Source of the DNA: Reyranella humidisoli
Lineage (GTDB): Bacteria; Pseudomonadota; Alphaproteobacteria; Reyranellales; Reyranellaceae
Assembly: GCF_019039055.1 (NCBI RefSeq)
Contig: NZ_JAHOPB010000004.1
Coordinates: 1 to 64,000 of the forward strand
Length of the DNA: 64,000 nucleotides
Reading direction: 5' to 3'
Below are positions 32,087-40,346 of this stretch, one piece after another. The translations under genes and the position numbers were made by a program. The stretch's first letter is position 1. Each line of letters begins with the position of its first letter. The notes beneath the pieces were generated by a model, which worked only from the letters and a program-made list of their open reading frames with translations, did no database searches and was not told where the DNA came from.

Positions 32087-32868
32087 AACGCTGGGGCGTG
32101 ATCCTGTTCGTCCTGCTGTTTGCCGGTCCCGCCGCCGCTCAGTCCGTCGGTTTCCCCAGCGTCACCGTCGGCAGCAGCCAGGCGGGGCCCGAGGTGAAGG
32201 GCTGGGTCTACAAGCCTTCCGGCAGCGGCCCGTTCCCCGCGATCATCCTGGCCCATAGCTGCGCCGGCACGAACGCCCACACCGACGTCTGGGGCAAGCT
32301 GCTCGTGGGCTGGGGCTATCTCGTCCTGGCGCCGGACTCCTTCGGTCCGCGCGGCACCAAGGCGGTGTGCACGACACCGGGCTTCGTGACGCCCAACATG
32401 CGCGTGGCAGACATTGCCGGCGCGCTCGACTATCTCGCAACGCGACCGGACGTAGTGAAGGGCAAGATCGGCATCATCGGCCACAGCCATGGCGGCTCGA
32501 CGGTGCTGCGCTCCACGCAGAGGAATTTCGGGCTGGCGCAGCGGGGTCTCGCCGCGGGCGTCGCCTACTATCCGGGTTGTAACCCGCAGTTCGACGGCGG
32601 CGTCGATGTGCCGGTCCTCCTGCTAGCCGGCGACAAGGACGACTGGACGCCGGCCGATCGCTGCCGGTCGCTGGTGTCGAGCCTGTCGCGCACCGGGATC
32701 GTCGCCGCGGTCTACTATCCCAACGCCTATCACAGCTTCGATTCCAGGTCCGCCGACCGCAACGTGCCGGGCGCCGCGGGCAAGCAGCACCATCTCGCCT
32801 ACGACCCCGCCGCCGCTCCTGACGCCGAGGCACGGACGAGGGCGTTCTTCGCGAAGTATCTGCGTTAG
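32083..32868 (+). CDS. Exported dienelactone-hydrolase-like alpha/beta hydrolase
   Basis: A 261-residue hydrolase with a Sec signal peptide (ILFVLLFAGPAAAQS). The nucleophile elbow is GHSHGGS near 145, a Ser instead of the Cys of true dienelactone hydrolase. The acid is in LLAGDKDDWTP near 185, and the catalytic His in YPNAYHSFDS near 220. It likely hydrolyses an ester in the periplasm. The ATGA overlap with the cyclase gene suggests co-translation. The 3' end overlaps the convergent ureohydrolase gene by 4 bases. Confidence 0.85.
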   Translation: MKRWGVILFVLLFAGPAAAQSVGFPSVTVGSSQAGPEVKGWVYKPSGSGPFPAIILAHSCAGTNAHTDVWGKLLVGWGYLVLAPDSFGPRGTKAVCTTPGFVTPNMRVADIAGALDYLATRPDVVKGKIGIIGHSHGGSTVLRSTQRNFGLAQRGLAAGVAYYPGCNPQFDGGVDVPVLLLAGDKDDWTPADRCRSLVSSLSRTGIVAAVYYPNAYHSFDSRSADRNVPGAAGKQHHLAYDPAAAPDAEARTRAFFAKYLR

Positions 32869-33806
32869 GCGTTGGCCAGCCCCATCTGCCGGCAGAGCAG
32901 CACGAGAGTCTCGTAGATCACGTGCGAGCAGAGGTGGGCGGCCATGCCGTTCACGTCCTGCGGGGGGCTCACGGTGTTCACGTCGACCGCCACGATGTTG
33001 AGGTCGGTGAGGCAGCGCAGCAGGTCGATGCCTTCGCGGGCGCTGAGGCCGCCCCAGGAGGGGGTGCAGACGCCCGGCGCGCAGGACGGATCGAACACGT
33101 CCATGTCGAAGCAGAGATAGACCGGACGCTTGCCGACCTTGTCGCGGAACTCCGCCATGCGCTGGGCGAAGCCGCCGCGGATCAGCTCGTCGATCGAGAC
33201 GACCTTGTAGCCGAGGCTCATGGCGCGCGGCACGACGCCCTGCGCGTAGGTCGTGCTGCGGATGCCGACATGCCAGGAGAATTCCGGATCGACGAGGCCT
33301 TCCTCGGCGACATGCGTGAACTGGGTGGCGGAGTTGTACTTCTCGTCCGAGCCATACGGGTAGGAATCGGTGTGCGAATCGATGTGGAGCGCCGCCATCT
33401 TCGGGTACTTCTTGCCGACCGCGCGCGCGACCGGGACGGTGACCGAGCCGTCGCCGCCGATGGTGATCGGCACGGCGCCGGCCTCGACGATCCGGTCGGC
33501 GGCCTGTTCGATCCGCTCGAACGCATCGACGATCTTCGACGGTGTCAGCTTGACGTTGCCGCAATCGACCAGGCCCAGCGCCGTCGCGGGATCGAAGTCG
33601 GCATTGGTCGGATTGAAGCGGCGCATGAGCTGCGACTGCTGGCGTACCGAATCGGGGCCGCCGCGCGCGCCGATGCGCATGTTGGTGCCGCAGTCGAACG
33701 GGATGCCGAGGATCGCGGCCTTGTTGGCCGGGCCGGGGCGGCCGTAGGGCACGCCCATGAAGGTCAGGGGCAGGGTGAACAGTTCGTCGTCGGACAGACG
33801 GTCCAT
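32865..33806 (-). CDS. Agmatinase/arginase-family ureohydrolase with altered metal site
   Basis: A 313-residue ureohydrolase; family members cleave guanidino or amidino groups to urea using two Mn ions. Motifs: TIGGDGSVTV, where the usual GGDHS His is Gly (codon 33447-33449); HIDSHTDSY with Asp, His and Asp ligands kept; and CFDMDVFDPSCAPGVCTPSWGG with both Asp ligands. One Mn-A ligand is therefore missing, so metal content and substrate may be unusual. The gene follows the M20 gene after a one-base gap, in the ABC importer operon. Guanidino-acid hydrolysis is a reasonable inference, true agmatinase is not assured. Confidence 0.88.
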   Translation of the reverse strand: MDRLSDDELFTLPLTFMGVPYGRPGPANKAAILGIPFDCGTNMRIGARGGPDSVRQQSQLMRRFNPTNADFDPATALGLVDCGNVKLTPSKIVDAFERIEQAADRIVEAGAVPITIGGDGSVTVPVARAVGKKYPKMAALHIDSHTDSYPYGSDEKYNSATQFTHVAEEGLVDPEFSWHVGIRSTTYAQGVVPRAMSLGYKVVSIDELIRGGFAQRMAEFRDKVGKRPVYLCFDMDVFDPSCAPGVCTPSWGGLSAREGIDLLRCLTDLNIVAVDVNTVSPPQDVNGMAAHLCSHVIYETLVLLCRQMGLANA

Positions 33807-33807
33807 G

Positions 33808-35064
33808 TCAGGGCTCCGCGGAGAGGAAATCGTAGGCCACTAGCGTGTGGATCCTGGCAACGGCCAGCAGCTCGTCGACCAGAACATGCTCGTCGGCCCC
33901 GCCCATGTTGAACGGCGTCAGGCCGAGCACCACGGTCGGCACGTCGAACATGCGATACCAGCGCGAGTCCGAGCCGCCGACGCGCATGTTCACGGCTGGC
34001 GTCTCGCCCAGCACCTCGGCGGCAACCCGGGCGGTGCGCGTCACGATCTCGTGGCCGGGGTCGGTGAAGGAGGGCTCGAAACGGCGGATCGCCTTCCAGC
34101 TCACGCCCTCGAGCGGCGCCAGCCACTCGTCGAGCTTGGCCGCGAGCACGTCGGTCGTGATGCCCACGGGGAGCCGGATGTCGGCGCGTGCGATGGCGTG
34201 CGTGGGCACCAGGTTGGGCGAGGTACCGCCCTCGATCGTGCCGATATTGACCGTGACCCGCGACAGCGTGTCGGCCTCGCCGGCGCCGGAGAGCGGTTCG
34301 GAAATGGGCTTGGCCTTGCCGATCGCCGCGGTGACGACCGGGGGCGACTGGAAGGGGACGTCCTCGAGTTGCTTCAGGCAGTTGAGCGCGGTGCGCAGCC
34401 GGTCGATGGCGTTGGTGCCCCTGTGGACGTGCGCGCCGTGCGCCGGGGATCCGGTGGCCTCGACCTCGACCCACATCAGGCCCTTCTCGCCGAAGCGCAC
34501 GACTTTGGGCGAGCCGACATCGCCGCAGATATTGGCGTCGCCGGCGGCGTGCGGGAAATGCTTCAGGAGATATCCCGATCCCAGCGAGCCCATGTTCTCC
34601 TCGTCGCCGGCCAGGGTCAGCACGATCTCGCCGTCCCAGGCGTCGCGATTCTCGGCCAGCAGCAAAGCCGCGAGCAGCGAGCAGGCGATGCCGCCCTTCA
34701 TGTCGCAGACGCCACGACCGTAGAGCTTGCCGTCCTTCAGCACGCCGCCCAGCGGCGGCACGGTCCACGGCAGGTTCTCCAGCAGCGGGAAGGTGTCGAG
34801 ATGGCCGTTGAAGATCAGGCGGCGGCCCGGCGCGCGGCCGCGGATGCGGCCGATCAGCGAGACGATGCGCGGCTCAGGCTCGACCCGCTCGATCTCGATG
34901 CCGGGAATCTCGCGCAGCAGCGCTTCGGCGACCTGCGCGACGTCGAACGTGTCGCTCGGCGGGTTGGGCGAGGCGACGGCCACCAGCCGCCGCGTCACCT
35001 CGATGAGACGGTCGAGCGAGCCTTCGACCTTGCGCGCCAGCTCGGTACGGACTTTGGATGACAT
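33808..35064 (-). CDS. M20 family amidohydrolase/deacylase (ArgE/DapE-like)
   Basis: A 418-residue zinc enzyme that removes acyl groups from amino acids or splits dipeptides. Zn-site motifs: FNGHLDTFP (H88), GRGVCDMKGG (bridging D121) and LAGDEENMGS (general base E155/E156). The lid dimerisation domain contains GSPAHGAHVHRG. ATG 35064 shares one base with the permease stop (TGATG), so translation is coupled. The context suggests it trims an acylated amino acid imported by the ABC system, before or after the ureohydrolase acts. Confidence 0.9.
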   Translation of the reverse strand: MSSKVRTELARKVEGSLDRLIEVTRRLVAVASPNPPSDTFDVAQVAEALLREIPGIEIERVEPEPRIVSLIGRIRGRAPGRRLIFNGHLDTFPLLENLPWTVPPLGGVLKDGKLYGRGVCDMKGGIACSLLAALLLAENRDAWDGEIVLTLAGDEENMGSLGSGYLLKHFPHAAGDANICGDVGSPKVVRFGEKGLMWVEVEATGSPAHGAHVHRGTNAIDRLRTALNCLKQLEDVPFQSPPVVTAAIGKAKPISEPLSGAGEADTLSRVTVNIGTIEGGTSPNLVPTHAIARADIRLPVGITTDVLAAKLDEWLAPLEGVSWKAIRRFEPSFTDPGHEIVTRTARVAAEVLGETPAVNMRVGGSDSRWYRMFDVPTVVLGLTPFNMGGADEHVLVDELLAVARIHTLVAYDFLSAEP

Positions 35065-35729
35065 CAGCGAGCCTGCAGCCTGCGTTCCCAGAAGCGGATG
35101 GCCATGGCGAGCGGCCAGCAGATGAAGAAGTAGACCACGGCAATGAAGGTGAAGGTCTCGAGCGGCCGGAAGTTGGTCGCCGAAAGCTCCATGCCACGCC
35201 TTGTGATCTCGCTCACCGAGATGACCGCGCCCAGCGAGGAGAACTTGATGAGCTGCACGAAGTTGGAGGCGAGCGGCGGCAGGGTCATGCGGATCGCCTG
35301 CGGCAGCACGATGCGGTTGAACGACTGGAACGGCGTCAGGCCCAGCACCTGGGCCGCTTCGCGATGGCCCTTGGGCACGCTCTGGATGCCCGAGCGGTAG
35401 ACCTCGGAGATGAAGGACGCCTGGTAGAGGGCGAGGCCGATGATCAGTGCGACCAGCGCCTCGATGCGCACGCCGAACACGATCGGCAGCACGTAGTAGA
35501 CCCACAGGAGCTGGACCAGGATCGGCGTGTTGCGCACCACCTCGCCGATCGAGATACCGATCCAGCGCAGCACGCGGAAGCGCGACATGTCGAGCAGGGC
35601 GATGATCAGCCCGCCGAGCATCGCCAGCACCAGGGTGATGGCCGAGATGACGAGCGTCATCTGCAGTCCGCCCATCAGGAAGTCGAAGCTTCCCCAGACC
35701 GTGTCCCAGCGGAATTGGTATTTGAACAT
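35064..35729 (-). CDS. Polar amino acid ABC transporter permease
   Basis: A 221-residue inner-membrane permease of the His/Glu/Gln (HAAT) family, five helices. It has the EAA-loop GHREAAQVLGLTPFQSFNRIVLPQA, which contacts the ATPase, and the helix GGLQMTLVISAITLVLAM. ATG 35729 (MFKYQFRW) follows GAGGAGTGG. A second ATG at 35753 would lie within a palindromic repeat. Only one permease gene is present, so it probably forms a homodimer. Confidence 0.9.
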   Translation of the reverse strand: MFKYQFRWDTVWGSFDFLMGGLQMTLVISAITLVLAMLGGLIIALLDMSRFRVLRWIGISIGEVVRNTPILVQLLWVYYVLPIVFGVRIEALVALIIGLALYQASFISEVYRSGIQSVPKGHREAAQVLGLTPFQSFNRIVLPQAIRMTLPPLASNFVQLIKFSSLGAVISVSEITRRGMELSATNFRPLETFTFIAVVYFFICWPLAMAIRFWERRLQAR

Positions 35730-35744
35730 CCACTCCTCACTTTT

Positions 35745-35847
35745 CCTCCCCATTCAAATGGGGAGGTGGCGCCGCTTGCGGCGACGGAGGGGTCATGACC
35801 CCTCCGTCAGCATAAGACGCTGACACCTCCCCCGCTGACGGGGGAGG
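35745..35847. repeat. Stack of palindromes between receptor and permease genes
   Basis: Hairpin CCTCCCCA/TGGGGAGG at 35745-35766, a perfect 26-base palindrome at 35783-35808 centred on GGTCATGACC, a GTCAG/CTGAC pair, and a hairpin with arms CCTCCCCC at 35826-35847. It sits in the transcript between the receptor stop and the permease start. This is where REP-type elements in sugar and amino-acid importer operons protect receptor mRNA and lower downstream expression. Confidence 0.8.
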
Positions 35848-35856
35848 CAAGCTTGA

Positions 35857-36663
35857 TTATGGCGCGACGATCGGGTCGAGCTTGTGCTTCTTGGCGTACT
35901 TCAGCAGCCGGCCGTCGAGCTTGATCGTGTCCACGAACAGGTTGACGTAGTTCAGCCAGATCTGGTCACCCTGCGGCACGACATACGCGTACGGCGTGAT
36001 GGCGAGCTTCTCGTTGGGCAGGATGTAGGTCGCCCAGTCGAACTCGTCGGTCACTTTGATGGCGGTCGGGAAGTCGGTGATGATGACGTCGACGCGCTGT
36101 GCGACCAGCTCGGCCTCGCGTGTGTTGGGCGGCGCCACCGACACCACCTCGGCGTTCTTCACATAGCCCTTCATGAAGGGCTCCATGTAGCTGCCCAGGG
36201 AGACGGCGGCCTTGACGCCCTTCTGGTCGATGTCCTTCCACTCCTTGATCTTGCTGTCCTTGCGCGTGACCGCATAGAGGTTGGTCAGCAGGTAGGGCTT
36301 GGAGAATTCGACGGCCTGGCCGCGCTTCATCGTGGCGCCGACGCCGAACATGCCGATCTCGCACTTGCCGGCCTGAAGGTCGGCGATGAACGAGCCGAAG
36401 CTCGATTCGACGATCTCGAGCTTGGCGTCGAGTTCCTTGGCGAATTCCTTCGCCAGGTCGGCATCGATGCCCTCGATCTCGCCCGTCTTGGAATTGCGGA
36501 ACGAGATCGAATAGTAGAGCGGAAACTGGCAGACCCGGAGCTTCTTGCTCTTGGTCACCTCGTAGAGACGCGACTGCGTCTGCTGTGCCTCGGCGCCCGT
36601 GATCGAAAATGCGCCAACCGTGCCCGCCAGCGCGAGCGCTCCCAAAATCCTTGCTACACCCAT
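35857..36663 (-). CDS. Amino-acid ABC transporter periplasmic receptor (SBP_bac_3)
   Basis: A 268-residue receptor. Signal peptide MGVARILGALALAGTVGAFSITGAEA is cut before QQTQS. Family features: LRVCQFPLYYSISFRNSKTGEIEGIDADLAKEFAKEL, then FGSFIADLQAGKCEIGM, where polar ligand residues reside. It likely binds an amino acid or guanidino derivative. First gene after the ATPase in the operon and separated from the permease by a block of palindromes. Confidence 0.92.
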   Translation of the reverse strand: MGVARILGALALAGTVGAFSITGAEAQQTQSRLYEVTKSKKLRVCQFPLYYSISFRNSKTGEIEGIDADLAKEFAKELDAKLEIVESSFGSFIADLQAGKCEIGMFGVGATMKRGQAVEFSKPYLLTNLYAVTRKDSKIKEWKDIDQKGVKAAVSLGSYMEPFMKGYVKNAEVVSVAPPNTREAELVAQRVDVIITDFPTAIKVTDEFDWATYILPNEKLAITPYAYVVPQGDQIWLNYVNLFVDTIKLDGRLLKYAKKHKLDPIVAP

Positions 36664-36691
36664 GACAAGCCTCCTTGTTTAACCTTCCCCG

Positions 36692-37456
36692 TTACTCATC
36701 CTCGAACTGCTGCAGGAAGCGCTTGGCGCGCTCCGTCTGCGGTGCATCGAAGAACGCAGATCCCGGCGCCGCCTCGACGATCTCGCCGCGATCCATGAAT
36801 ACGGTGCGCGTGCCGACATGACGCGCGAATCCCATCTCATGAGTGACGACCAGCATGGTCATGCCCTCGCGAGCAAGCTGGCGCATGACCGCGAGGACCT
36901 CGCGGCGCAGCTCGGGATCGAGCGCGCTGGTTGCCTCGTCGAAGAGCAGGACCTTGGGCGACATGGCGAGCGCGCGGGCAATTGCCACGCGCTGCTGCTG
37001 GCCGCCGGAGAGGCGCGCGGGATAGGCGTCGCGCTTGTCGGACAGGTCGACCTTCTTCAGCAGGGCCTCGGCGATGGCGACTGCCTCGTCCCTGGGCATC
37101 TTCTTCACGCGTATCGGCGCTTCGATCAGGTTCTGCAGCACCGACATGTGCGGCCACAGATTGAAGTGCTGGAACACCATGCCGATGTCGGACCGCACGG
37201 CGCGCCCGGCCGCCTTGACCTGCTTGTTCGGTGCCGGCGTCGAAATGGGCACGCCCTGCATCACGATGCGGCCCTCGCTCGGCTCCTCGAGCAGGGCGAG
37301 GCAGCGCAGCAGCGTGGTCTTTCCCGAACCCGACGGGCCCACGACGCAGACCACGTCGCGCTCGGAAACGTCCAGAGACACCCGGGTCAGTACCTGGTTG
37401 GCGCCGAAGCGCTTTGTGATGCCGTCCGCGAGGATGAGGGGGGCCGTGCTGCTCAT
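36692..37456 (-). CDS. Polar amino acid ABC transporter ATPase
   Basis: A 254-residue cytoplasmic ATPase of the GlnQ/HisP group. Walker A VVGPSGSGKTTLLRCLALLEEP near 39, Q-loop GMVFQHFNLWPHMSVLQN, signature LSGGQQQRVAIARALAMSP, Walker B VLLFDEATSALDPELR and the switch His in VVTHEMGFARHV. First gene of the importer operon, starting at ATG 37456; the frame continues to 37543 but over the divergent promoter region with the LysR gene. Confidence 0.93.
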   Translation of the reverse strand: MSSTAPLILADGITKRFGANQVLTRVSLDVSERDVVCVVGPSGSGKTTLLRCLALLEEPSEGRIVMQGVPISTPAPNKQVKAAGRAVRSDIGMVFQHFNLWPHMSVLQNLIEAPIRVKKMPRDEAVAIAEALLKKVDLSDKRDAYPARLSGGQQQRVAIARALAMSPKVLLFDEATSALDPELRREVLAVMRQLAREGMTMLVVTHEMGFARHVGTRTVFMDRGEIVEAAPGSAFFDAPQTERAKRFLQQFEDE

Positions 37457-37464
37457 GTCACTCC

Positions 37465-37479
37465 ATAAGCAATTCCTAT
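37465..37479. promoter_or_regulatory. LysR-type T-N11-A box near the ATPase start
   Basis: ATAAGCAATTCCTAT fits ATA-N9-TAT, the classical T-N11-A LysR motif, 8 bases before the ATPase ATG. Part of it (GCAATTCCT) is present in inverted form at 37533-37541 near the LysR side, giving a symmetrical layout of the divergent region. Confidence 0.5.
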
Positions 37480-37552
37480 GCCGCTCCATCGGAGACTGCC
37501 GGATCGGCAGGGGTTTTGCTAGTAGAGTCCTAAGGAATTGCAAAAATGACCA

Positions 37553-37567
37553 ATAACGACTGTTTAT
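37553..37567. promoter_or_regulatory. LysR-type ATAA-N7-TTAT box before the LysR gene
   Basis: ATAACGACTGTTTAT is a perfect ATAA-N7-TTAT dyad, the sequence recognised by OccR-type regulators. It ends 5 bases before the LysR ATG and lacks a Shine-Dalgarno site after it, so it could serve autorepression of a leaderless or short-leader message. Confidence 0.55.
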
Positions 37568-37572
37568 AGCAT

Positions 37573-38451
37573 ATGGACGTCAAGCTCCTCGAAGCCTTCC
37601 GGGCGGTGGTCGACCATCGCTCCATGACCGCCGCCGCGGGCGCCATGGGCGTGACCCAGCCCGCGGTCAGCACCCAGATCGCCCGCCTTGAAGAGACGGT
37701 GGGTTTCCCGTTGTTCGAGCGGGCCAACGGTCGGCTGAAGCCGACGGCCGAGGGCGTGCTGTTCTATGCCGAAGCAAGCCGCGTGCTGGGCGAGGTCGAC
37801 CGGCTGCAGGCCGCGACGGCGCAGATCCGCGAGGGCCAGTCGGGCCGGCTGGTGATCGCCAGCCATCCTTCGGCCGCGATCTCGCTGCTGCCCAACCTCG
37901 TGGCGAAGTTCCTGGACGAGCGGCCGGGCGTGTCGGTGCGGCTGATCTCGCGCCATTCCGATGTCGTGAGCCAGCTCCTGCCGAGCGAAGGCTTCGACAT
38001 CGGCATCGCCGAACTGCCGATCGACGAGAGCCAGGTCGAGGTCCGGCGCTACGGGATGCGCTGCGTCGCGATCCTGCCGCCGCGCCATCCGCTCGCGGCC
38101 TGCAAGCTGCTGACGCCGCAATTGCTCGCGCCGCATCCGATGGTGATGCCGGCGCGCTCGCACCAGGTGCCCAATCGCATCCGCGGCGTCTTCTCGGCGG
38201 CCGGCGTGTCCCTCAATGCCGTGGTCGAGGCGGAGTTCTTTGCCACGCTCTGCGGTCTGGTGGCGGCGGGCACCGGCTGGTCGATCGTCGATCCGCTGTC
38301 GGCGCGCGGCTTCGAGCATCTCGGGCTGGTGGCGCGGCCGTTCGAGCCGGCCGTCACCTACGAGATCGGTGCCTTCCATCGCCGCGACCGCGAGCCGTCG
38401 GTGCTCGCCGCGGCGTTCCTCGACATGCTCGACGACAAGCTGAAAGGGTAA
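37573..38451 (+). CDS. LysR family regulator of the importer locus (OccR/NocR-like)
   Basis: A 292-residue activator. Helix-turn-helix MTAAAGAMGVTQPAVSTQIARLEE at about 18-42. The co-inducer domain begins near 92 (GRLVIASHPSAAISLLPNLVAKF), as in NocR/OccR-type opine and arginine regulators. It is divergent from the ABC importer operon and followed after 3 bases by the M28 peptidase gene, so it probably controls both sides. Two LysR boxes lie in the intergenic region. Confidence 0.9.
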   Translation: MDVKLLEAFRAVVDHRSMTAAAGAMGVTQPAVSTQIARLEETVGFPLFERANGRLKPTAEGVLFYAEASRVLGEVDRLQAATAQIREGQSGRLVIASHPSAAISLLPNLVAKFLDERPGVSVRLISRHSDVVSQLLPSEGFDIGIAELPIDESQVEVRRYGMRCVAILPPRHPLAACKLLTPQLLAPHPMVMPARSHQVPNRIRGVFSAAGVSLNAVVEAEFFATLCGLVAAGTGWSIVDPLSARGFEHLGLVARPFEPAVTYEIGAFHRRDREPSVLAAAFLDMLDDKLKG

Positions 38452-38454
38452 GCC

Positions 38455-39729
38455 ATGCGTCTCGACGCGGGACTGATGGGCCGCCTCGCGGCCGACGAGG
38501 CGCTGTGGCGCGACTTCAACGACATCTGCGACTGCGGCGGGCGTCTCTCCGGCACGGAGAGTGAGAAGCGGGCCTTCGCGCTGCTGCGCGAGCGCGTCCG
38601 CGCGGCCTCACCGGCCAATTCCGGGCGGTCGATCCCGGTGCCTTACAATGGCTGGCAGGCGAAGTCGGCTACGCTGAAACTGCCCGGCGGCAGCTTCGCG
38701 CCCTGCCATCCGCTGGTCCGCACCATCGCCACGCCGCCGTCGGGCCTCACGGCCGAGGTGATCGATCTCGGCCGTGGCACGCCCGACGAGTTCGAGGCGC
38801 ACAAGGCCGAGATTGCCGGGCGCATCGTGCTGGTGCGGCACGAGCTGATGTTCGCGGCCGGCACCATTCATCGCCGCCGCAAGTACGACATGGCGCGCGC
38901 GAACGGCGCCGTGGGCTTCCTGATCGCCGGGCCGCTGGCCGGTCACGTGGTGGCGGGCTCCTCGGGCCGCGACACGGGCGAGGGCATTCCCGCGCTGGGC
39001 ATTTCGCCGGAGACGGCGGCGAAGCTGGCGCGCCGTTCGACCGGCTTTCCCACGGTCACGATCGCCATCGAGACCGCGGAGGGGCCGGCCGAGACCGAGA
39101 CGCTGGTCTACGACTATCCCGGCCAGACCGACGAATGGGTGGTGCTGTCGGCGCATGTCGACGGCCACGACCTCGCCGAGAGCGCGATGGACAACGGCAC
39201 CGGCCTCGCCGCCGTGCTGGCGGTGGCGCGCGCTTTGTCGCCGGAAGTGGCGAAGTGGCGGCGGGGATTGCGCGTCATGTTCTTCAGTGTCGAGGAATGG
39301 GCGCTGACCGGCTCGGCGCAATATGTGAAGGCGCTGGGCGAGGCCGAGCGCGCGAAGATCGCGCTGAACGTCAATCTCGATTCGGTGGCGGGCAGTCCGA
39401 ACCTCGCGGCACTCACCAGCGGCTATGCCGGCGTCGAGCCGTTCCTGCTGGGGGTGGCGGAAGCCAACGGTCAATCCCTGCGTACCGTGCGGCCGCTGAT
39501 GACCAATTCCGACCACGCGAACTTTGCTGCGGGTGGCATTCCGGCCATCCGTCTCGTGGCGGGCTTCGACGATCCCAACGCGCATCTACGGGTCGTGCTG
39601 ACGCCGGCCGATACGCGGGACAAGGTGGCGCAATCGGAGTTGCGGCAGGCCACGCTGCTCACGGCGGCGCTGGTCGCGGCCGCCTGCACCGTCGATCCCG
39701 CGGAAGCGGCGCGCTGGCGGATGGCGTAG
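38455..39729 (+). CDS. M28 family zinc aminopeptidase
   Basis: A 424-residue metallopeptidase with a PA-type insert (about 95-190, GEGIPALGISPETAAKLAR). Zinc ligands are in VVLSAHVDGHDLAESAMDNGTG (His, Asp), SVEEWALTGS (catalytic Glu pair) and NVNLDSVAG (Asp), with the last His later in TNSDHANF. No signal peptide, so it is cytoplasmic, unlike many M28 enzymes. It starts 3 bases after the LysR stop and is probably translated with it. It may release amino acids from imported conjugates. Confidence 0.9.
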   Translation: MRLDAGLMGRLAADEALWRDFNDICDCGGRLSGTESEKRAFALLRERVRAASPANSGRSIPVPYNGWQAKSATLKLPGGSFAPCHPLVRTIATPPSGLTAEVIDLGRGTPDEFEAHKAEIAGRIVLVRHELMFAAGTIHRRRKYDMARANGAVGFLIAGPLAGHVVAGSSGRDTGEGIPALGISPETAAKLARRSTGFPTVTIAIETAEGPAETETLVYDYPGQTDEWVVLSAHVDGHDLAESAMDNGTGLAAVLAVARALSPEVAKWRRGLRVMFFSVEEWALTGSAQYVKALGEAERAKIALNVNLDSVAGSPNLAALTSGYAGVEPFLLGVAEANGQSLRTVRPLMTNSDHANFAAGGIPAIRLVAGFDDPNAHLRVVLTPADTRDKVAQSELRQATLLTAALVAAACTVDPAEAARWRMA

Positions 39730-39782: not shown

Positions 39783-40346
39783 ATGCTGCTGTCGCTCCTC
39801 GTGGCCTCTCTCCTCGTCATGGGCAGCCCCGGTCCCTCGACGATCAGCGTCACGGCCGTTGGGGCGGCGTTCGGTCTGCGACGGTCCATCGCCTACACAT
39901 CGGGGCTGATTGCCGGCACCGTTCTCGTCCTGCTCGCGGTGGCAACCGGCGTGGTGGCCATGCTGCTGGCGCTGCCGCGGATCGCGCCCGTCCTGCTCGT
40001 CGCATCGGTCGGCTACATCCTCTATCTCGCCTTCCGGATCGCGACGGCACCGCCGCTCGCAATGCATGACGCGTCGCGCGATGCGCCATCTTTCGGCGGC
40101 GGTCTCCTGCTGGCCCTCGCCAATCCCAAGGCCTATGTCGCCATCGCGGCGGTGTTCACGGGCTCGGGCCTGCCAGCCTCCGTCAAGATCGTGGTGCTTG
40201 CCGGCATGGTCGTGCTGATCCATGGCGCGTGGCTGGCGGCGGGGACAGCGTTCGGGCGAGTCTTGCGCGATCCGATGTGGTCGCGGCGCGTCAACGTCTG
40301 GCTCGCCGCGGCTCTCGTGGCGGTGACGGTCTATTCGCTCACGTAA
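39783..40346 (+). CDS. LysE family translocator
   Basis: A 187-residue amino-acid exporter with about six helices. It begins with the LysE/RhtB signature SLLVMGSPGPSTISVTAVGAAFGLRRSIAYTSG, where the PGP loop is diagnostic. The second half has LLLALANPKAYVAIAAVF with the NPK motif. Substrates are amino acids or similar metabolites. The last 16 bases overlap the convergent MFS gene. Confidence 0.92.
   Translation: MLLSLLVASLLVMGSPGPSTISVTAVGAAFGLRRSIAYTSGLIAGTVLVLLAVATGVVAMLLALPRIAPVLLVASVGYILYLAFRIATAPPLAMHDASRDAPSFGGGLLLALANPKAYVAIAAVFTGSGLPASVKIVVLAGMVVLIHGAWLAAGTAFGRVLRDPMWSRRVNVWLAAALVAVTVYSLT

Follow-up and report, generated by a model that had tools for sequence, protein, structure and literature searches.

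What does an arginase-fold protein do in a catabolic-looking gene cluster once the residues with which its relatives handle guanidines have been replaced? This question is raised by a locus of the alphaproteobacterium Reyranella humidisoli (NCBI RefSeq assembly GCF_019039055.1, contig NZ_JAHOPB010000004.1, positions 1 to 64,000; this 64-kb stretch is called the window hereafter). Genes were located by open reading frame coordinates and family profile matches (Pfam, NCBIfam). The genes for a polar-amino-acid importer, an M20 family metallohydrolase and a ureohydrolase lie on one strand, divergent from a LysR gene that is followed by an M28 metallopeptidase gene (Table 1), in the order given in a preliminary description of the locus. 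That description had also proposed that the encoded proteins import a conjugate, deacylate it and remove a guanidino or amidino group. Import and hydrolysis by the M20 and M28 proteins are upheld by our analysis, but the last step is not. Our own reading, which we offer as a possible one that falls somewhat short of probable, is that of a LysR-controlled operon pair importing and hydrolysing a small amino-acid-like compound, in which the arginase-fold hydrolase would act on a neutral C-N bond.

The active site of the arginase-fold protein

The structure model of the arginase-fold protein (pLDDT 88, pTM 0.89) has 3niq (TM 0.89), 1gq6 and 7lox (TM 0.80) as its best Foldseek matches. Guanidinopropionase, guanidinobutyrase and agmatinase (3nip, 3nio, 7lox) resemble it with TM values by query length of 0.80-0.89, ca. 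32-36% identity and five of the six metal ligands in common, but the window protein lacks their site-a His, catalytic His and guanidinium-binding Glu, and its scores lie under the NCBIfam agmatinase cut-offs (TIGR01230, 160.2 against 174.3; NF002564, 221.9 against 302). In E. coli agmatinase, according to the available part of the source (PMC8125230), metal site a consists of His126, Asp149, Asp153 and Asp230 and site b of Asp149, His151, Asp230 and Asp232, while His163 is catalytic and Glu274 binds guanidine. Structures were compared with Foldseek, the pocket geometry rests on alignments, and the correspondence with E. coli agmatinase was set by motif alignment. In this alignment Asp143, His145, Asp147, Asp234 and Asp236 of the window protein are the kept ligands, whereas Gly120 takes the place of His126, Ser159 that of His163 and Thr278 that of Glu274. 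The ureohydrolase had been called a variant beforehand, and this holds to a greater extent than was stated, as the active site has been rebuilt. With these three residues (metal-ligand His, catalytic His and Glu) replaced, the protein is unlikely to remove guanidino groups by the established mechanism.

The altered site is shared by a clade, here called the GGDG clade (L and G numbers denote our loci and genomes). G120, D143, H145, T146, D147, D234, D236 and T278 are invariant in 39 out of 39 aligned rows, i.e., the window protein and 38 relatives with identities down to 44%. A second alignment held 48 arginase-family rows besides the reference. The Gly, all five ligands and the Thr occur in 46 of these, with Ser, Ala, Pro, Thr or Asn at position 159. 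The ligand His and the Glu are those of canonical enzymes in the other two, which come from L155 and from an additional L163 gene ca. 8 kb away. The sequences of L072, L096, L100, L101, L102 and L104 were partial, motif-lacking or absent in the motif alignment. Because the residues are invariant in 39/39 rows, the reshaped site would point to a function that has been retained and not to decay, and the enzyme probably has a different job from guanidine splitting. In a tree of 69 rows, a branch with 100/100 support separates the 40 GGDG rows from all others, although some branches are long according to a warning of the tool. Among the 30 further sequences included in this tree, L106 showed the GGDG signature and the 29 others were canonical; the canonical tree sequences possess the ligand His and the Glu in 29/29 cases and the catalytic His in 28/29, L107 having Ala. 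An arginase-family protein encoded next to an ABC importer in genome G425 (L155:9148-10044) also has Ala for the catalytic His, together with all metal ligands and the Glu, and may be an intermediate, though not a member of the GGDG clade. The ureohydrolase gene at L072:328-1353 is broken by a run of X (unread bases) and by sequence unrelated to it, which probably reflects faulty assembly.

In the class sample, 24 out of 385 genomes match the clade at E <= 1e-86, and the GGDG signature was read in all 24. In the phylum sample (398 genomes) it was found, among 30 loci from the best matches, in the own genome and in G186. Within the genus the ureohydrolase is a patchy trait, since 41 out of 61 genomes hold it at an identity of at least 86% (fragments only in G027, G047 and G059). 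It is 99% identical in several Reyranella records, R. aquatilis among them. At L178 the neighbourhood scan contained no ureohydrolase gene call, yet the signature was read in the sequence.

Two other explanations of the altered site have to be weighed here. The protein could be a pseudoenzyme assembling with a canonical ureohydrolase encoded elsewhere or with the M20 protein, in the manner of MetCb and MetCa of metformin hydrolase (MetCaCb/MfmAB), a known arginase-fold system with altered sites. According to the available part of PMC11271267, MetCb is without metal and needed as a binder, and its clade loses 3-5 of the six ligands and sits beside an active partner. A canonical paralogue is indeed present in 39 of the 41 clade-positive Reyranella genomes (in two as a fragment; the exceptions are G049 and G059). 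We nevertheless consider this explanation unlikely: one ligand is lost here and five are invariant in all 39 rows, and a second arginase-family gene is absent from the window cluster and was not met in the recurring clusters. The protein could also still be a guanidino or amidino hydrolase whose lost residues are made up for by others, for example with a guanidino dipeptide being cut by the M28 and M20 proteins before urea is released. This would agree with the common fold, with ca. 35% identity to guanidinopropionase and guanidinobutyrase and with the deiminase genes near relatives of the ureohydrolase and of the M20 protein (see below), and the available part of PMC11271267 reports Asn for the catalytic His in MetCa. 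E320 is essential in the MetCa pocket, whereas Thr replaces the Glu in the window protein. On the other hand, agmatinase retains only 1-2% of its activity in the E274A variant and 3-5% when His163 is changed to Phe (PMC8125230, available part), and in the GGDG clade both residues as well as a metal ligand are replaced in 39/39 and 46/46 rows. Having to replace three functional residues at once makes this explanation unlikely.

Recurrence and co-occurrence of the gene set

The preliminary description had suggested checking whether the gene order recurs in relatives. Joining ureohydrolases at 80% identity yielded 29 lineages from 92 loci; some contigs were counted twice (for example, L074/L156, L103/L163 and L089/L161), which leaves the number of lineages at 29, and L072 was counted as its own lineage though it resembles a damaged Reyranella-type copy. 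Gene calls on relatives came from simple scripts and are rough, and the SDR, TRAP, Opp and PotABCD names used below were assigned by eye. Most of the gene set is found in 8 out of 29 lineages, i.e., Reyranella with L070, Bradyrhizobium/Tardiphaga, L074, Albimonas, L073, L157, Elioraea L076 and L088, which include an Elioraea metagenome-assembled genome (MAG) and two beta-proteobacterial MAGs. The Bradyrhizobium/Tardiphaga cluster is without M28 and that of the Elioraea MAG without M20. The M20 and ureohydrolase genes are adjacent in six of the eight, the others being L076 and L157, where the ureohydrolase accompanies M28 and LysR on their side of the cluster. At L159 only M28 is found nearby, and at the partial locus L102 M28 adjoins the ureohydrolase. 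The gene set, for which no described pathway had been known when it was first noted, thus recurs, and our literature search (titles and abstract starts) returned, among the matches listed, nothing on this clade or gene set.

The link also appears when whole genomes are compared. For M20, 11 genomes out of a class sample of 289 contain a relative of the window protein (E <= 1e-70), and ten of these are clade-positive (the exception is G656); of 15 further clade-positive genomes, eight contain an M20 relative at E <= 1e-50. M28 relatives (E <= 1e-40) were detected in 11 genomes of a class sample of 367, nine of which belong to the clade-positive set (G072 and G776 do not). Against a background of 24/385, a naive binomial gives 9e-12 for M20 and 7e-10 for M28, and counting M28 by family gives 2e-5 (5/7 families clade-positive, 13/200 assumed). 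In several genomes the M20 or M28 genes are located on other contigs than the ureohydrolase gene, although these are drafts and the distance is, therefore, unproven. These data bear on the idea of an ordinary salvage operon for peptides or N-acyl amino acids, with a common dipeptide as substrate and a minor or regulatory part for the arginase-fold protein. Settings of M28 relatives (judged by eye, from weak matches) would suit it: one adjoins an Opp-type receptor in a genome without a clade match (L257), another GGT-like and Opp-type genes in a genome with the clade (L260). However, ordinary salvage leaves unexplained the tight link of M20 and ureohydrolase, which are separated by 1 bp in the window and are neighbours in most clustered lineages, and the co-occurrence also holds across contigs, so that we regard it as unlikely.

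Importer, hydrolases and LysR boxes

Table 1. Coordinates in the window of the genes of the cluster, of the LysR boxes and of a flanking gene.
Feature	Position	Strand	Basis
Arginase-fold protein, GGDG clade, 313 aa	32865..33806	-	Pfam Arginase (250.5 bits, cut-off 22), alignments, structure model, Foldseek
M20-family metallohydrolase, ArgE/DapE-like, 418 aa	33808..35064	-	Family profiles, alignment to 3ic1
Permease of polar-amino-acid ABC importer	35064..35729 (or -35753)	-	BPD_transp_1; HEQRo_perm_3TM (88.2 bits, cut-off 42.2)
Periplasmic receptor, SBP family 3	35857..36663	-	SBP_bac_3 profile; signal-peptide-like start (by eye)
ABC ATPase of importer	36692..37456	-	Family profiles
LysR box A, ATA-N9-TAT, ATAAGCAATTCCTAT, adjoins ATPase start	37465..37479	+	Pattern scan
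LysR box B, ATA-N9-TAT, ATAACGACTGTTTAT, directly before LysR start	37553..37567	+	Pattern scan
LysR-type regulator	37573..38451	+	HTH_1 and LysR_substrate
M28 metallopeptidase with PA domain	38455..39729	+	Profiles; without evident signal peptide (by eye)
LysE-type exporter, membership uncertain	39783..40346	+	LysE (36.7 bits)

The close spacing that had been noted is evident from the stop codon of the permease gene and the start codon of the M20 gene, which share one base (TGATG), from the 1-bp gap between M20 and ureohydrolase and from the 3-bp gap between LysR and M28. The end assigned earlier to the locus is the end of the M28 gene; the LysE-type gene begins 53 bp further on and adjoins M28 in only some Reyranella loci. 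The importer belongs to the polar-amino-acid (PAAT) type of ABC importers, as an SBP_bac_3 receptor, an HEQRo-type permease and an ATPase are all present, with a single permease gene in the cluster. Its receptor, which was compared among relatives too, keeps an Arg (..TMKR..) and an Asp (..ITD..) that align with ancestral amino-acid-binding proteins and presumably contact the alpha-carboxylate and the alpha-amine of the ligand, respectively. Judging from these residues, the importer would take in a molecule with an alpha-amino-acid head. Besides the own genome, 5 of 398 phylum genomes contain relatives of the receptor outside the cluster, and their neighbours gave no hint of a substrate. At L261, L263, L264 and L265 such relatives adjoin, by eye, large signalling-type proteins and not an importer, which suggests a sensory use of this receptor type there.

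The M20 protein shares its family and most metal motifs with the ArgE/DapE-type deacylases, but its score for the ArgE/DapE subfamily profile (TIGR01910) is below the cut-off (181.6 against 217.6 bits), and it aligns to 3ic1 with a Gly at the C-terminal metal His (DapE position 349, which we take to be a metal ligand). The same Gly is present in 14 out of 14 aligned cluster relatives. As a control, the own genome holds 19 other M20 family matches, of which the seven that could be aligned (L185-L188, L191 = L198, L192 and L199; two aligned weakly) all have His there or one column off. More distant relatives share the loss: L203 (46%) has Asn in place of the His, and ten M20 relatives of 33-38% identity (L204-L213) are also without it, with Ala in L209. 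The loss of the His in M20, therefore, predates the operon. The paired His-to-Gly losses in the ureohydrolase and the M20 protein would fit a shared substrate that supplies its own metal ligand. In contrast, the M28 protein and its 11 aligned relatives keep the HxD, DN, EE, D and SDH motifs, presumably those that hold the metal ligands; the M28 sequence of L102 is cut before the first two.

The LysR boxes reported earlier between the two groups of genes were recovered. ATA-N9-TAT, which is a stringent version of the T-N11-A box of LysR regulators, has exactly two matches in the window, both inside the 116-bp spacer between the LysR and ATPase genes and 88 bp apart. This is more than expected by chance: at least two sites were obtained in 0.075% of 20,000 mononucleotide shuffles of the spacer, and shuffles of the complete window contained a mean of 0.36 sites, with 5 out of 100 reaching two. 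At least one exact box is present in 31 of 34 LysR/ATPase spacers, and two exact boxes spaced by 87-89 bp in 26 of the 34, including L073 and L074/L156, though this set is mostly from one genus, Reyranella, and counts both L074 and L156, which are the same contig. The L070 spacer has one exact and one relaxed box, and exact boxes occur in other arrangements at L050, L077, L080 and L157. A divergent LysR gene with palindromic T-N11-A boxes in the spacer is thus found, and the boxes are real as sequence; from them we infer that the operon pair is under LysR control.

The region between the receptor and permease genes (35742-35850) is dense in inverted repeats. Besides a perfect inverted repeat of 13 bp, it contains the only two CCTCCCC..GGGGAGG hairpins of the window (mean of shuffles, 0.03), and it perhaps represents a mobile palindromic element or a structure stabilising the mRNA 3' of the receptor gene.

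Candidate substrates and the role of the clade

In the reading that we favour, the imported molecule, an amino-acid compound with an amide or ureido group, would be cut at amide or peptide bonds by cytosolic M28 and M20 hydrolases, as their families suggest, and an N-acyl amino acid is a possible substrate. The arginase-fold protein would still be an active metallohydrolase but no longer handle guanidines: the weaker of its metal sites is without the His, and the proton-shuttling His and the Glu for guanidinium are missing. It would probably employ the more tightly held site-b metal to hydrolyse a neutral C-N bond of a ureido or amide group, giving ammonia and CO2 or a carboxylate. A one-metal enzyme is plausible because His126 of E. 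coli agmatinase holds the weakly bound metal only and one Mn has been argued to be the minimum for activity, as the available part of PMC8125230 describes. The change from Glu to Thr removes the charge pairing with guanidinium, and a neutral ureide or amide would, therefore, fit the site.

Other lineages of the clade would offer a source for such a ureide. In three of them a gene for an arginine-deiminase-like (ADI-like) protein lies upstream of the ureohydrolase gene, 5 bp (L092) or 14 bp (L103) before it or with one DUF1028 gene in between (L165-L167); a literature search on DUF1028 found nothing. The TRDS, EGG, HIDG and HCST motifs, which we take to hold the active residues of deiminases, are kept in 6/6 ADI-like proteins of more than 300 aa (L103/L163 being one contig), and by eye a PotABCD-type importer precedes the ADI-like gene. 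The resulting operons, consisting of a PotABCD-type importer, an ADI-like hydrolase, an M20D-like or DUF1028 protein and a GGDG ureohydrolase (L103:5943-9915, L092:4343-7966 and L165:7235-9938), seem to be independent pathways that degrade a guanidino or ureido compound. The ADI-like enzyme would deliver a ureide to the arginase-fold enzyme, and its position upstream would suit the supply of a ureido product to the following enzyme, although these operons leave a guanidino origin of the substrate possible. The logic from guanidine via ureide to amine would be that of agmatine deiminase followed by N-carbamoylputrescine amidohydrolase (PMC12283126, available part), from which the window cluster differs in having no deiminase. 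That the whole clade has turned to neutral substrates, as mono-metal ureido- or amide-hydrolases fed with a ureido amino acid by a deiminase or an importer, is conceivable but doubtful.

Several results weigh against our reading. No tested neighbour occurs within 9 kb in 15 of the 29 lineages, some of whose contigs are short, and two more have only a LysR or an ATPase match. The remaining settings are diverse, comprising short-chain dehydrogenase/reductase (SDR) pairs (L168, L169, L171 and L179), a thiamine-pyrophosphate (TPP) enzyme (L090, L174 and L176), a TRAP importer with dehydrogenases (L162 and L177) and an Opp-type importer with an FmdA-like gene (L089); the family may, therefore, serve several substrates. 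The co-occurrence draws are separate samples from which relatedness is not fully removed, and the 11 M28 genomes fall in seven families, five of which are clade-positive. The spacers of L076, L086 and L087 are without an exact LysR box. The ADI-like gene of L091 (5381-6420) is split over two frames, by a sequencing error or by real damage, and L093, of the same lineage, has no such gene. Since the window cluster itself has no deiminase gene, the idea of a ureido substrate is borrowed for it from other lineages.

Relatives of the window M20 also occur in other settings. In two clade-positive genomes (L229:1118-12396 and L237:8049-16334) an M20 relative lies on another contig than the ureohydrolase, with a PAAT-like importer, Rieske oxygenases, a 2-hydroxyacid dehydrogenase and proteins of the urea-amidolyase-associated type (one tested, 248.8 against a cut-off of 284.7; another judged by eye) as neighbours, and at L229 an arginine deiminase gene is two genes away. 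At L224:823-9208, an M20 with 46% identity to that of the window, which departs at further metal positions, is accompanied by a diaminopropionate ammonia-lyase (496.6 bits, cut-off 276), DgaE-like and M24-type proteins, a second M20 and an ABC importer. This cluster resembles that of the window in its importer, PAAT-type by eye, and its type of M20, but differs by the ammonia-lyase, DgaE-like and M24-type genes and by the absence of a ureohydrolase from the stretch read.

Some more specific candidates were considered and dropped. A ureido- or acyl-diaminopropionate (albizziine-like) substrate was suggested by L224, but nothing ties it to the window. Use of the cyanophycin dipeptide (beta-Asp-Arg) was set aside as the arginase-fold protein lacks the guanidine residues; a literature search on cyanophycin gave nothing on a CphZ enzyme among the matches listed. 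An ectoine-like cyclic amidine was abandoned because the ABC parts score below the ectoine (Ehu) cut-offs, and a link with formamidase because, of the clustered loci compared, no more than two (L077 and L089) have an FmdA-like gene in the vicinity of the ureohydrolase.

The fold and the style of the operon are known, whereas an active site that departs in this way from the canonical members compared appears to be new. Proteins of the clade are, we expect, likely annotated as agmatinase, a name that would then probably be wrong given the invariant residue losses. The gene sets of the other lineages (ADI-like, DUF1028, SDR pairs and TPP enzyme) are independent leads to the substrate. N-carbamoylputrescine amidohydrolase has a fold other than that of arginase, and if the proposed mechanism is true, the clade would represent another solution, with an arginase fold, to the step from N-carbamoyl-amine to amine. 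Cleavage of ureido or amide bonds by this clade would be a new reaction type in the arginase superfamily, and our reading of the locus, if true, would add a new route for the uptake and degradation of organic nitrogen by soil and freshwater bacteria.

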